From assembly GCA_013519935.1 (NCBI GenBank), contig JACDUA010000005.1, positions 1 to 64,000 of the forward strand: a DNA stretch of 64,000 bases, in the 5' to 3' direction. The translations under genes and the position numbers were made by a program. The notes under the pieces are model-generated. The model saw only the letters and a program-made list of their open reading frames with translations. It made no database searches and was not told where the DNA came from. Source of the stretch: Ectothiorhodospiraceae bacterium WFHF3C12 (GTDB taxonomy: Bacteria; Pseudomonadota; Gammaproteobacteria; Nitrococcales; Nitrococcaceae). Positions 30,428 through 38,359 of this stretch are shown here, piece after piece. Every line of letters begins with the position of its first letter. Positions within the stretch are counted from its first letter, which is position 1.

Positions 30428-32656
30428 ATGGCGACAACAACAAGTGCGATGGAAGAGCCGCTCTACTTTACGATCACCCACGCCGAGTCATGGGCCATGG
30501 AGACCACGGTCCGCAACCGCTTGCTGGCCCTGGCGGGCGTGCGGGAAGTGCGCGTCCGGCTGGGTGACGGACGCGTTACCGTGCTTGGTGAAGGGCTGGA
30601 CTCGGCGCGAGTGATCGCGGCGGCGCGCCAGGCCGGATGCGAGCTGACGCGTGATCCCCCGGGTGATCCCGTCCAGGTGGGCGCGGCCTGGCCGAGCCTG
30701 AATCGGCAGGCCGGCGGCGGGCCGCTCGGCGGGGCCGGGCTGGCCTGTCTCGCGGGCCTGATTCTGGCGGTCGCCGAGAGCTTCAATGTCCTGCCGGCCA
30801 TGTCCGGGGCGGGTGCCGAGGCGTTCTGGCTGGCGGTTTCAGGGGCGGTGCTGCTGATCGGGGCCGCCCTGGTGCGCGCCTGTCTGGCCGGTGCCGGGAG
30901 CTATCCGGGAACGGCGGTCCTGTCCGCGGCGGCCGTGCTGTGTTGCGGCGCGCTGCTGAACTGGGCACAGACCCTGGTTGGCTGTCTCTATCTTTCCGCC
31001 GGCTGCGGGCCGTCCTATGGCTACCTGGACAGCGCGCTGGTGGGGGTGGGGGCCGCCGGCCTGATCGTGGCAATGGGGCGAAACAGCTGGGCCCGCGTCA
31101 ACACGCCGTTGCTCGAACAGATGCCGCAACCGCCCAAGACCGTGCGCGTGCTGCGCGACGGGCTGGCCCAGTCACTGGATCTGGACCGCCTGCGGGTGGG
31201 CGAAATGGTCCACGCCGTCATGGGTGATGCCATCGCGGCGGACGGTATCCTGACGCGCGGTTACGGCACGGTGGACGAGGTCGCCATAACCGGCCGGGGT
31301 GAGGGTCAGACCAAGCGCGAGGGCGACGAGGTGCTCGCCGGCAGCCGTGTCCGCGATGGGGACTTCGTGTACTGCGTCAATCGCACCGGCAGCCGCACGG
31401 TGCTGGCCGCGCTGGTCAATGCCGCCGCTGCGCGGATGAGCGGGCGCGCGCGGGCTGCAAGCATGGCCCGGCTCATCGGGCTGTGCGCCGCCCTCGCCGC
31501 GTGCTCTGCCGTGGTCTGGCAGGCACTTCGCGCGGCGGAAGCGGGCGCGACGCTGCAAGTGGCCATAACCGTGTTCATGGTGGCCGCGCCCATGGGATTC
31601 CTCTGGGGGCGGGCCCGCGTGCTGTCCGGCGTTACGTCCCGCCTGGTCCAGGCGGGCGTGGTGGCCCGCTCCCACGAAGCCCTCTCCAGGGCGGCGCGAT
31701 TGCGCGCCGTGTTCTTCGATCAGGGGCTTAGCCTGACGGTGGGCGAGCCCCAGGTCATGGGCGTGGAGCCGGCGACTGGCGTGCGCGTTCGGGATCTGTT
31801 CACGCTCGCCGCCAGCGTCGAGGCTGACAGCCGTCATCCCCTGGCGGAGGCGGTCATCAGCGCCGCTCTGGAACGCGATCTGCCCATACTGCCGACCACG
31901 GACTTCGAATCCTGGCCCCAGGAGGGGGTGGCCGCGGTTATTGACGGGCGTCGCGTGCTGGTGGGCAACACCCGCCTGATGCATCGCTTCGCGGTGCCGC
32001 CGTCGCTGGAACAGCGGTGCGAAGAAATGGCGGACGATGGCCGGGCGGTAATCCATGTGGCCGTGGACGGCCGTCATATCGGCCTGTTGGCGGTTGAGGA
32101 TGCCCCGGCCACCGGGGCCGCGGAGACCATTGCGGGCCTGGCGGCGCGGGATATTGAACCGGTCATGCTCACCGGGGCCTCTCGGCGATCGGCCGTGGGC
32201 TTTGCCCGATCTCTCGGCATCGAGAACGTCCGCGCGGAACTCTCCCCGCAACGCAAGGCCGAGATCGCCACGACGGACAATGGGGGCGCGGCGGCCACCG
32301 TGGTCCGCGCCGGTGTTGTCGACCCGCCGCCGGGGGCGGATCTCTCTATAGTGGTCCGAGGACCGGGGGAGGGCGTGCCGGGCGATGGCGACGTGGTGCT
32401 GTTCAGCGGCCTGACGGGGCTGTTGCGGCTTATCGACGAGGCGCGGGAGGCGCGGGCCGTAATGGGCCGGATGCGGTGGATGTGCCTGCTGTATCTCCTG
32501 GTGGTCGTGCCCATGGCCGCCGGCGCATCCGTGGTCCTGTTCGACTGGTTGATACCGTCGATTCTCGCCCCCATCGCAGCGGCGGTAGCGGTAATCGTGC
32601 TCGACTCCATGGCGGCGAACAGCGTGGCCTCGCGGTGGTCTATGGAAGGGGAATAG
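30428..32656 (+). CDS. P1B-type ATPase homologue lacking catalytic motifs (pseudoenzyme)
   Basis: A 742-residue protein that aligns end to end with heavy-metal P1B ATPases: N-terminal ferredoxin-like domain, membrane helices, actuator, nucleotide and phosphorylation domains, and final helix pair. The key motifs have decayed. The N-terminal CxxC is absent; TGES reads TGRGEG (288-293) and membrane CPC reads APMGF (387-391). DKTGTLT reads DQGLSLT (431-437), TGD reads TGAS (582-585) and GDGxNDxP reads RAGVVDPP (627-634). Only the phosphorylated Asp431 and His470-Pro471 remain. The frame is open throughout, so it is unlikely to be a recent pseudogene. It probably cannot pump metal; a structural or regulatory role is inference. 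Confidence 0.85.
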   Translation: MATTTSAMEEPLYFTITHAESWAMETTVRNRLLALAGVREVRVRLGDGRVTVLGEGLDSARVIAAARQAGCELTRDPPGDPVQVGAAWPSLNRQAGGGPLGGAGLACLAGLILAVAESFNVLPAMSGAGAEAFWLAVSGAVLLIGAALVRACLAGAGSYPGTAVLSAAAVLCCGALLNWAQTLVGCLYLSAGCGPSYGYLDSALVGVGAAGLIVAMGRNSWARVNTPLLEQMPQPPKTVRVLRDGLAQSLDLDRLRVGEMVHAVMGDAIAADGILTRGYGTVDEVAITGRGEGQTKREGDEVLAGSRVRDGDFVYCVNRTGSRTVLAALVNAAAARMSGRARAASMARLIGLCAALAACSAVVWQALRAAEAGATLQVAITVFMVAAPMGFLWGRARVLSGVTSRLVQAGVVARSHEALSRAARLRAVFFDQGLSLTVGEPQVMGVEPATGVRVRDLFTLAASVEADSRHPLAEAVISAALERDLPILPTTDFESWPQEGVAAVIDGRRVLVGNTRLMHRFAVPPSLEQRCEEMADDGRAVIHVAVDGRHIGLLAVEDAPATGAAETIAGLAARDIEPVMLTGASRRSAVGFARSLGIENVRAELSPQRKAEIATTDNGGAAATVVRAGVVDPPPGADLSIVVRGPGEGVPGDGDVVLFSGLTGLLRLIDEAREARAVMGRMRWMCLLYLLVVVPMAAGASVVLFDWLIPSILAPIAAAVAVIVLDSMAANSVASRWSMEGE

Positions 32657-32730
32657 GCGCGGGCGGGGTGGGCGGCGTTCCAACGATCGACCCCTGTGGC
32701 CCGCGGCGTTCCCGATGCGGAGGTCAATGA

Positions 32731-33582
32731 ATGAATTCCATGTGGAAATCCCTGCGTGTTCCGGGCATTGCCATTGCGCTTTTCGCGATGGTGGCCGGCT
32801 GCACCACCTCGCCGACCGGGCGTCAGCAGCTGCAGCTTTTCCCGGAGAAACAGATGGCTCAGATGGGCTCGGAGGCCTATGAGAACATCAAGAAGGAAAC
32901 CCCGGTCTCGGAGGATCCGGCGGTAAACGGCTACGTATCCTGCGTCGCCGACGCCATAATTCGCGTGCTCCCCGAGGGACGGGAGGTGCCGCCGAGCTGG
33001 GAGGTCACCGTATTCCGCAGCGATCAGGTCAACGCCTTTGCGCTACCCGGTGGCAAGATCGGCGTCTACACCGGGCTGTTGCGCGTGGCTGAGAATCAGC
33101 ACCAGTTGGCCGCCATAGTGGGCCATGAGATCGGGCACGTGCTGGCGAATCATTCCAACGCCCGGTTATCGGCAAACTACGCCACGATGGCGGGGTTGAC
33201 GGTGATCAGCGTCCTCGCCGGGGCCAGCGGCGCCGTAGATGACCAGCGAACGATGATGGCGCTGCTCGGGCTGGGTGCCCAGGTCGGGGTTCTGTTGCCG
33301 TTCAGCCGCTCTCACGAGAGCGAGGCCGACGAAATCGGCCTGGAGCTAATGGCGGAGGCGGGATTTAGCCCCGCCGAGAGCGTCGAGTTATGGAAGCGCA
33401 TGGCCGAAGCCAGCGACGGTCAGCCGCCGGAGTTCCTGTCCACCCATCCGTCCCACGGCACCCGCATCCGCGATCTGCAGGACCAGGTGCCGAGGGCGCA
33501 GCGGCTCTACGACGCCTCGCCGTATCGTCCCGACTGCCGGGAGGTGATTCCGGAGGCCGTGAACGCCGAAGACGCGGGTTGA
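32731..33582 (+). CDS. loiP: M48 family metalloprotease lipoprotein (LoiP-like)
   Basis: A 283-residue zinc protease. A signal peptide ends at lipobox VAGC, so it is anchored as a lipoprotein. The zinc motif HEIGH is at residues 132-136, and the third ligand Glu lies in ESEADEIGLELM. NAFALPGGKIGVYTGLL is the usual M48B segment. Such proteases act in envelope protein quality control. GGAGG lies upstream of ATG 32731. It is convergent with pcl. Confidence 0.92.
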   Translation: MNSMWKSLRVPGIAIALFAMVAGCTTSPTGRQQLQLFPEKQMAQMGSEAYENIKKETPVSEDPAVNGYVSCVADAIIRVLPEGREVPPSWEVTVFRSDQVNAFALPGGKIGVYTGLLRVAENQHQLAAIVGHEIGHVLANHSNARLSANYATMAGLTVISVLAGASGAVDDQRTMMALLGLGAQVGVLLPFSRSHESEADEIGLELMAEAGFSPAESVELWKRMAEASDGQPPEFLSTHPSHGTRIRDLQDQVPRAQRLYDASPYRPDCREVIPEAVNAEDAG

Positions 33583-34794
33583 TTACCAGTCCTGGAGCTT
33601 GCCCATGGCGTTGCGCGGCAGGGCAGGCCCCAGCGTGAAGGAGACCGGGCGCTCGGCGGGCCGGAACTGGCGTTCGCACCACTGACGCAGCTCAGCGGGG
33701 AGCGTCATCGGGTCCGCGGTGTCCCGGGGAACGACAAAGGCCTTGAGCCGCGCGTCGGACCCCCCGGGTCCGGTCCGGACGTGGCAATCGTTCACGTCGG
33801 GATGCGCGCACAGGCGCCGGGCCACGTCCGCGGGGTAGACATTGGTGCCGCCGATCTGCACGGCGCCGTCACGCCGGCCCGCGGGGCGGAAGTGGTGTTC
33901 GTCCGTCCATTCCAGGGTGTCGTCGGGCCCTTCGTGGGTCTGCCACTGGCCGTCGGGGCGACGCCGTTGCAACCTGCCGTCCCGACCGCGCCGCCAGTGG
34001 TCCATCAGCCGGAATTCGCCGCCGGAGGTGGCCCGTATCCCCAGGCCCGCCGTTTCGGATGAGCCAAAGACCTCGATCAGTGAGCCGGCGTCGTTGCCCG
34101 CGACGGCTTCTGCCACCGACGCGGGCAGCGGCGCCGTGGAGCTGGTACCGACCGCACTGACGGGCAGCCGCCGGCCGAGACTCACCAGGTACTGCCAGAA
34201 GGTGGGGAAGCCCACCACCAGATCACCTTCCTTGATGCGGTCCGGCCGCCACTGATCCACGCCGGCGGCGTGCACTACCGGGACATCCGCTGCGGCCGGC
34301 AGCAGTACGCCGAAAATGAAACCATAGATGTGATGGGCGGGGGCCACTGTGTAGATACGCTCGAATGGCGGCAGGTTGCCCGCCAGCCAGCGTGCCTCCT
34401 GCCAGAGCGTACCCATTTCGTGGCGGCACGCGCGCGGCTCGCCGGTCGAGCCGGAGGTGGAGAACCGAACTGCCGCGTCCGGCCGCGAAAGCGCGTGCGC
34501 CGCAAGCGCCGCCCATTCCCCCAGCGACCGGCGCCGCAGCAGGTAGTCGTCGATGCCCTCGTCGGCCAGCGCGAACTGGCCACCCACGGCGCTTGCCAGG
34601 CGCAGTAGTGCCAGGGAGTCCGCGGGCAGGCCGGCGCCACCGATTCGAACTCCGGCTTCAAGCGTGCCGAACGTCGGGGCTTCGCGGTCCTCGCCGTGGA
34701 TCGCGGTCCACTCGGACAGAGTGGCCGATGCCACCGCCGGCAGGACGCCGGCGGCGGACAGTGATGGCAGGGATTCACCCACGGTGACGGCCAT
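33583..34794 (-). CDS. pcl: p-Coumarate:CoA ligase for the PYP chromophore
   Basis: A 403-residue AMP-forming ligase, much shorter than plant 4-coumarate ligases but near the size I recall for the PYP-associated enzyme. The P-loop TSGSTGEPR is at 113-121, EVFGSSETAG in the middle binds the adenylate, and the C-terminal catalytic Lys399 lies in NAMGKL. It starts 4 bases after the pyp stop, with GAGG as a weak ribosome binding site inside pyp. Its product, p-coumaroyl-CoA, would be loaded onto Cys69 of PYP. Identification rests on this context as well as on the motifs. No tyrosine ammonia-lyase gene is in the window. Confidence 0.88.
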   Translation of the reverse strand: MAVTVGESLPSLSAAGVLPAVASATLSEWTAIHGEDREAPTFGTLEAGVRIGGAGLPADSLALLRLASAVGGQFALADEGIDDYLLRRRSLGEWAALAAHALSRPDAAVRFSTSGSTGEPRACRHEMGTLWQEARWLAGNLPPFERIYTVAPAHHIYGFIFGVLLPAAADVPVVHAAGVDQWRPDRIKEGDLVVGFPTFWQYLVSLGRRLPVSAVGTSSTAPLPASVAEAVAGNDAGSLIEVFGSSETAGLGIRATSGGEFRLMDHWRRGRDGRLQRRRPDGQWQTHEGPDDTLEWTDEHHFRPAGRRDGAVQIGGTNVYPADVARRLCAHPDVNDCHVRTGPGGSDARLKAFVVPRDTADPMTLPAELRQWCERQFRPAERPVSFTLGPALPRNAMGKLQDW

Positions 34795-34798
34795 GGCC

Positions 34799-35179
34799 TC
34801 AGAGCCGCTTGACGAAGACCCAGTAGCTGTCCCCGTTCAGGGACTGCTTCATGTGGACCTTCACCTTCGTGGGCTGCATCTTGTAGTCGAAGGTGTATTC
34901 GAACATGGTGTTGAGGTTGCCGTTGGCCACGCCATCCCGGAAGCGGCCGGCGAACTCGGGGCTGTTCGTGCAGGGCGCGACCTCGCGGAAGAAGTTCCTG
35001 CCAATCACCTGATCCGGCGAACGGCCGGTGATCTCGCCCTCGGCGGCGTTGTACTTGAGCACCCTGCCGTTGGCGTCCAGCTCTATGGCGCCGAAGGCGA
35101 GCTGGTCGAGCTCGTTGTCCTTCATTTTCGCCAGCGTGTTCTGAATGTCGTCCTGTCCAAACGAGACTAGATCCATCAT
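34799..35179 (-). CDS. pyp: Photoactive yellow protein
   Basis: A PAS-fold blue-light receptor. Counted from the second of two adjacent ATGs (35176), it is 125 residues, exactly like the Halorhodospira halophila protein, and every chromophore-pocket residue keeps its number: Tyr42, Glu46, Thr50, Arg52 and Cys69 ([10 protein letters not shown]), which carries the p-coumaroyl thioester. The stretch [15 protein letters not shown] is nearly identical to the model protein. ATG 35179 has AGGGG 8 bases upstream and may be the true start. In halophiles PYP is linked to blue-light photoresponses; the local signalling partner is unknown. Confidence 0.97.
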
Positions 35180-35235
35180 GGTTTGCACCCCTATCTGTGG
35201 TCGTAAGTACCGGATGGGCCTCCGTGCTCCGCCCG

Positions 35236-35280
35236 GGCAGGGTGCAAGATATTGGGTATACAAACCCTATACAAAGGTTG
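35236..35280 (-). promoter_or_regulatory. Candidate pyp promoter with TATACAAA direct repeats
   Basis: Upstream of pyp is an AT-rich patch. On the minus strand TTGTAT, a 17-base spacer and TATCTT form a weak sigma70-like promoter. Two direct repeats TATACAAA (35257-35264 and 35268-35275 on the plus strand) are 11 bases apart, one helical turn, and could bind a regulator. Both assignments are by eye. Confidence 0.4.
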
Positions 35281-37993: not shown

Positions 37994-38359
37994 TCACTGC
38001 GTTTCAATCCTGCCGGTCATCCCCGCCTGCTTGTGCCCCGGGACATTGCAGAAGAAGCGAACGTTCCCGTCTTCCGGAACAGTGAATTCGACGGTGTCGG
38101 TGCCGCCGGCCTGAATGGTCTTGGTTTTGATGCCTGTGCCGCGGATGTGGAGGTTGTGACTCAGGGCGCCGTCGTTCACCAGCTTTATGCGGAGAGTCTC
38201 ACCGGCCTCGGCCTTGATGCTGGAGGGCTCGAAGCCGAACTCCTTGGCCGTGACCTTGACGATATCCCCTTCTGCGCTTCCGCCCGCGGCCGGAAAGGTC
38301 ATAGCGACGGCGAATAGGCCGGCCGCGACCATTCCGAACCTTCTGCGAAGTCCCACCAT
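37994..38359 (-). CDS. Cupredoxin (type 1 copper protein)
   Basis: A 121-residue periplasmic protein. A signal peptide (about 1-29) is followed by a plastocyanin/azurin-like barrel. The copper ligands are clear: His68 (SHNLHI), Cys104 (FFCNVPGH), His109 and Met114. It probably carries electrons or copper. It lies upstream of nothing on its strand until far left, so it may be monocistronic. The partner oxidase or reductase is not in the window. Confidence 0.88.
   Translation of the reverse strand: MVGLRRRFGMVAAGLFAVAMTFPAAGGSAEGDIVKVTAKEFGFEPSSIKAEAGETLRIKLVNDGALSHNLHIRGTGIKTKTIQAGGTDTVEFTVPEDGNVRFFCNVPGHKQAGMTGRIETQ

Follow-up and report, generated by a model that had tools for sequence, protein, structure and literature searches.

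A degenerate P1B-type ATPase gene upstream of an M48 metalloprotease gene and its counterpart in a second genus

In a 64,000-nucleotide stretch of the Ectothiorhodospiraceae bacterium WFHF3C12 genome (hereafter the window), the gene at 30428-32656 (+) encodes a degenerate P1B-ATPase-like protein of 742 amino acids (P0001), which is derived from the P1B-type ATPases but should not be classed among the P1B transporters. The residues it has lost strongly support, on sequence grounds, the original prediction that the protein does not pump, and a second degenerate P1B gene stands in the same place in another genus of the family. We give about an even chance to the reading that P0001 is retained as a non-catalytic membrane scaffold or adaptor, acting without turnover.

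Frame, fold and lost motifs

The gene, recognized from its ORF, profile matches, alignment and a structural model, begins with ATG at 30428 and runs through 742 codons to a stop that ends at 32656. Its codon-position GC (0.743/0.537/0.828) is similar to that of adjacent genes, and third-position GC stays between 0.75 and 0.88 throughout. A local frameshift behind the motif changes was discounted, the frame being open throughout and the altered codons reading cleanly. A scan for promoters and terminators gave no signal above chance. An antisense ORF of 503 aa (31172-32683 (-)) overlaps the gene, and its codon-position GC of 0.827, 0.526 and 0.748 suggests a GC-rich shadow rather than a gene.

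Pfam matched E1-E2_ATPase (PF00122) and HAD hydrolase (PF00702) above cut-off and HMA below it. Among NCBIfam models, the general P-type TIGR01494 scored 105.2 against a cut-off of 62.3, while the heavy-metal P-type TIGR01525 reached 246.7 bits, below its cut-off of 346.25. The solved structures nearest to P0001 in sequence are CopA pumps. An AlphaFold2 model reached a pLDDT of 84.3 and a pTM of 0.79, with 95-98 in the N-domain and 64-78 across residues 611-660, which surround the lost GDGxND; its input of 54 P1B homologues, being P1B only, biases it toward the P1B fold. The top VIA-align match of the model was the CopA E1 state 7r0g (Z 30.2, 4.2 A, 625 residues). According to Pfam, model and fold match, A, P and N domains and eight TM helices are all present in P1B order, and the predicted full-length frame, with a fold traceable from end to end, is thus borne out.

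Along the plus strand, the HMA-like N-terminal domain (residues 8-78, 30449-30661; Pfam below cut-off, model and alignment) keeps its ferredoxin-like secondary structure and has lost its Cys site, the MxCxxC positions being S21 and M24 (about 30482-30499). Helices MA, MB, TM1 and TM2 follow (97-222, 30716-31093; model and hydropathy), and then the actuator domain (236-330, 31133-31417; Pfam, alignment and a fit to 2hc8 of 1.4 A over 112 residues), where TGE has become TGR (290; 31289-31297). In TM3-TM4 (340-410, 31445-31657; alignment and model), CPC is replaced by APM (387-389; 31586-31594). The first part of the P-domain (412-440, 31661-31747; alignment) reads DQGLSLT for DKTGTLT (431-437; 31718-31738), and of DKTGT only the acceptor Asp, D431, is kept. 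The N-domain (441-550, 31748-32077; alignment, identity and a fit to 2voy_J of 1.0 A over 116 residues) retains HP (470-471) and G513-N514; the HP context is SRHP (31829-31840), with Arg for the preceding Glu, and the first Gly of GxG is Gln. In the second part of the P-domain (551-662, 32078-32413; alignment), TGD is TGA (582-584; 32171-32179) with T582 retained, motif-III K610 is kept, and GDGxND is RAGVVD (627-632; 32306-32323), which retains D632, the second Asp, and is immediately followed by a 2-residue deletion. TM5-TM6 and the C-terminus (663-742, 32414-32653; alignment and model) have LL for YN and no MxxSS. The neighbouring gene, 74 bp downstream at 32731-33582 (+), encodes an M48 metalloprotease, likely a lipoprotein, and the two genes probably form an operon.

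These losses were confirmed by alignment with P1B relatives. The alignment had 114 rows (P0001, P0004 described below, and 112 other P1B proteins), obtained from 126 by dropping 14, namely two copies of P0004 (L062 and L071), eight duplicates from within a genome and four truncated sequences (L004, L010, L024 and L156), before P0001 and P0004 were added. Near-invariant columns, in which a single residue occupies 95% or more of the 112 P1B rows, numbered 74. P0001 keeps 34 of them, fewer than any of the 112 rows, all of which retain at least 61; P0004 keeps 50, the next lowest row (L005) 61, and the median row 74. L005 is a divergent paralogue, CcoI-like by eye. The claim that CxxC, TGE, CPC, most of DKTGTLT, TGD and GDGxND are replaced stands in that all six are altered, and needs correction in that D431, T582, K610, D632, HP and G513-N514 are kept and no overall degradation of the N-domain is seen.

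Passages of PMC9433437 assign the (T/S)GE loop to dephosphorylation and describe YN in M5 and MxxSS in M6 as P1B-1 motifs; motif roles in P1B-ATPases were taken from such passages there and in PMC5089723. With no Glu in the (T/S)GE loop, no first Asp in GDGxND and no Cu ligands, a normal transport cycle would not be expected from what is known of the family. It seems hardly credible that P0001 is still an active transporter working through unconventional residues: D431, K610, T582, D632 and HP would be at its disposal, but it has lost K, T, G and T from DKTGT, Glu from TGE, the first Asp from GDGxND and the canonical ligands for Cu. A search for an intact paralogue, as the original prediction had proposed, found four further P1B matches in the genome (4.6 Mb, 168 contigs), all with DKTGT, CPC and GDGxND, one of them (L004) being cut by a contig end.

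A counterpart before the M48 gene in a second genus

No match to P0001 at E<=1e-100 was found in the 22 other genomes of the family. At lower thresholds, matches appeared in 12 of 53 other genomes of the order (1e-52), 11 of 368 others of the class (1e-58) and one of 397 others in the phylum sample (1e-60). These matches (L006-L028 and L060) were rejected as orthologues and are ordinary pumps, since L006-L028 all keep DKTGT and L060 missed no core motif. Among L006-L028, the motif scan missed TGE in L011, GDGxND in L024, which a contig end truncates, and in several cases the strict HMA pattern; the Glu column of TGE is fully conserved in the alignment despite the miss in L011. Such regex misses at single loci mostly reflect pattern strictness, and alignment counts were used instead. 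The N-terminal 236 residues of P0001 had no other match in the order at 1e-5, peptide-pattern scans of genome contigs and viral contigs found no relative of P0001, a genome-contig scan with P0004 found distant P1B proteins only, and all tblastn matches in plasmids were below 60% identity.

Synteny alone identified the counterpart. G001, a genome of the same family and another genus, carries a P1B-like gene of 728 aa (P0004, L062:7404-9590 (-)) directly before an M48 homologue, and M48, PurU and an ABC-F-like gene (the latter two named by eye) have the same order and relative orientation as in the window. At 116 bits by BLAST, P0004 would be missed by the similarity thresholds, and further degenerate relatives may exist unseen. 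In P0004, CxxC is lost, TGE is TGT, CPC is ASP, HP is RP, YN is YA, GxG/GN of the N-domain is lost and MxxSS is broken, while DKTGTLT, TGD and GDGVND are kept. Common to both proteins are thus the loss of CxxC, TGE, CPC and YN and a broken MxxSS. P1B pumps with standard motifs are encoded elsewhere in G001 as well (L201 is one), and paralogues of this kind could cover pumping in both genomes.

At 26% identity in the pair comparison, P0001 and P0004 resemble each other no more closely than either resembles active pumps; BLAST gives 33% identity over 469 aa. Rare residues common to the two number 25, a modest excess over the 19 for L005, and the median is 4. No clear excess of pairwise conservation was found in any domain, and no conserved new interface is visible. 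The tree joins them on long branches, that of P0001 being the longest, and gives P0001 no firm placement. Because both are degenerate P1B proteins encoded in the same slot and on the same strand within one family, they are best read as orthologues, a reading that falls short of proof from sequence alone; the comparison has one sequence per genus. P0001 and P0004 retain opposite catalytic halves, and nucleotide binding is therefore not a function common to both.

None of the roles that had been suggested for P0001 gained specific support. The metal sensor or chaperone is disfavoured, with MxCxxC, CPC and YN lost and MxxSS broken in both proteins; the inhibitor of a paralogue is possible, paralogues with standard motifs being present. 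A copper sensor or store could instead use altered Met-based ligands (M24 at the HMA site, M389 at the CPC site and a Met-rich TM5), and both second Cys positions are indeed Met in P0001, which has several Cys in TM1 as well (e.g. C172, C173, C186 and C193). Neither Met is found in P0004, however, and a single TM1 Cys is common to both (C172/C151), so that we rate this sensor as quite improbable. Hardly better placed, and also improbable, is a regulator without catalysis of its own, acting on an intact CopA paralogue through mixed complexes or competition for the CopZ chaperone. The same genome does offer P1B paralogues with standard motifs, and the model predicts that the HMA-like fold and membrane architecture are kept, but divergence in P0001, strong also in the second P segment, is greatest in TM1-2 and TM5-6, the metal ligands that would face the chaperone have been lost, and the analysis gave no sign of P1B hetero-oligomers.

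Among 57 M48 loci, comprising 30 of the 35 M48-bearing genomes of the order and 27 from the class sample, a P1B gene upstream of M48, within the flanking sequence available, was found only in the window genome and G001; two loci, L180 and L032, have just 170 and 563 bp upstream. A CopA gene before M48 in G027 was judged unrelated as a third member, the CopA being intact and the M48 different and larger. Seven genomes of the order (G023-G026, G035, G036 and G038) have a small HMA (CopZ-like) gene upstream of M48 on the same strand; Pfam confirmed HMA in all four submitted (G023, G024, G026 and G038) and DUF411 between HMA and M48 in all three submitted (G023, G026 and G038). DUF411 is only loosely linked to copper response in passages of PMC6444534. 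This context suggests that the M48 slot is an old locus for copper handling, next to an envelope protease, and HMA-DUF411-M48 is possibly a copper and envelope-protease unit.

Several other features were seen at or near these loci. The HMA (CopZ-like)-DUF411-M48 order occurs at L053, L042 and L047, in other families of the order, and in G026 a frame that is CsoR-like by eye lies nearby, as does a second HMA gene. The P-type ATPase at L210 (G024) has a TPCPL motif, GDGINA for GDGxND and a C-terminal extension that is hemerythrin-like by eye. In G003, a member of the family, a transposase-like ORF (by eye; L061 5518-6495) lies directly upstream of M48, and the slot has therefore been open to insertion. 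Between M48 and PurU, the window has a photoactive yellow protein gene (TIGR02373, 209.7 bits versus 143.05) and an adjoining 4-coumarate-CoA ligase-like gene (TIGR02372, below cut-off), both within 33583-35263 (-); the pair is missing from that place in G001. About 4.4 kb beyond M48, a cupredoxin-like small protein is encoded at 37994-38359 (-), with Pfam Cupredoxin_1 and Copper-bind above cut-off.

Selection or decay

Loss of so many motifs without stops had been taken as an argument for selection. At the GC content of the window (67%), where an antisense frame extends for 503 aa, an open frame is weak evidence taken alone, and the support for past selection comes from simulations. Two CopA genes of this genome were evolved neutrally, by substitution only, until their loss of invariant residues matched that of P0001, assuming zero selection since function was lost and leaving indels uncounted. 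The mean number of stops was 3.1-12.2, and the frame remained stop-free in 0-3.5% of 200 runs per setting, compared with 0 stops in P0001. Over eight family-defined TM windows, P0001 has a hydropathy of 1.82, against a pump average of 1.80 (sd 0.11); simulations dropped to 0.79-1.31, and none of 500 in each of four settings reached the P0001 level. The same windows contain 4 charges in P0001, a median of 3 in pumps and 9.5-14.8 in simulations. Windows taken from the model gave hydropathy in agreement with these eight, which replaced an earlier set of 11 that included three non-TM stretches (13 charges in P0001 versus a median of 10). N-domain identity to pumps is 0.35 for P0001, 0.36 between pumps and 0.20-0.28 in simulations, again with 0 of 500 at the P0001 level in each setting. 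These values argue that P0001 stayed folded and membrane-inserted after losing the transport cycle, and long neutral decay of the gene is unlikely.

It is a real, if doubtful, possibility that a redundant copper-pump gene, with CopA paralogues at hand, came under strongly relaxed selection and is becoming a pseudogene in both genera, held open partly by GC-rich DNA in which stops are rare. This would fit motif losses that differ between P0001 and P0004, very long branches, the want of a conserved patch common to the two, a slot where no P1B gene was found in other relatives, and spurious long ORFs such as the antisense one, which are common here. It is at odds with the zero stops where zero-selection simulations expect 3-12, with TM hydrophobicity and N-domain identity at the levels of active pumps, and with normal codon-position GC. 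The simulations bear on zero selection, and selection relaxed only in part is a serious rival. Past selection on P0001 is favoured by the simulations and by the syntenic degenerate counterpart in G001, although these do not establish a new function.

Proposed role and comparison with known systems

If P0001 is the retained scaffold or adaptor that we prefer, its ancestor would have been a Cu(I)-exporting P1B-ATPase of the CopA type in an old copper locus directly before the M48 gene. Metal binding and transport (CxxC, CPC, YN and MxxSS) and the dephosphorylation Glu would have been lost first, probably before the genera split, because the G001 counterpart has lost the same sets. Later, the window copy would have lost its phosphorylation and Mg sites and the G001 copy, instead, its nucleotide-binding residues, so that the common remainder would be a polytopic membrane protein encoded beside a protease. 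The N-domain of P0001 may have kept the ability to bind nucleotide. The partner of P0001 could be the M48 protease encoded next to it or an intact copper pump, and the process served could be control of the envelope or of copper stress. Within the scaffold reading, this choice of partner is a guess, possible and clearly less probable than the scaffold itself. We propose, tentatively, that two genera share a pseudo-P-type-ATPase lineage, non-transporting and under selection at a copper-protease locus; its two orthologues, lacking opposite catalytic halves (P-domain versus nucleotide site), would act as scaffold or adaptor for the M48 protease.

Pseudokinases and other dead enzymes are familiar. 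A search of the open-access literature found no paper that pairs P-type ATPase with pseudoenzyme or pseudo-ATPase, and no matching report by title or abstract. If selected, P0001 would indicate that the P-type scaffold, large as it is, can persist once the pump cycle has been lost; the half-dead orthologue pair would then be a natural dissection of the parts that matter. If it is merely decaying, it would show in what sequence the parts of a pump disappear, metal ligands and actuator Glu first.

Among known systems, the CopA-type P1B-ATPases (A. fulgidus CopA, 7r0g, and the copper efflux ATPase 3rfu) are the best sequence and fold matches of P0001, which has their domain order (HMA-MA-MB-TM1/2-A-TM3/4-P-N-P-TM5/6) and keeps their N-domain, but differs from them in the altered MxCxxC, TGE, CPC, DKTGT, TGD, GDGxND, YN and MxxSS. 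P0004 resembles P0001 in its slot before M48, its losses of CxxC, TGE, CPC and YN and its similar length; unlike P0001, it keeps DKTGT, TGD and GDGVND and is without HP and the N-domain GxG/GN. KdpB of KdpFABC, a P-type ATPase, has its ion path in a partner subunit, and the resemblance to P0001 is that of a P-type core without the complete transport path; KdpB is, however, catalytically active, and no gene for a KdpA-like partner adjoins that of P0001. The FUPA families are uncharacterised P-type ATPases, and P0001 may be likened to them, by their description, as another uncharacterised P-type relative.
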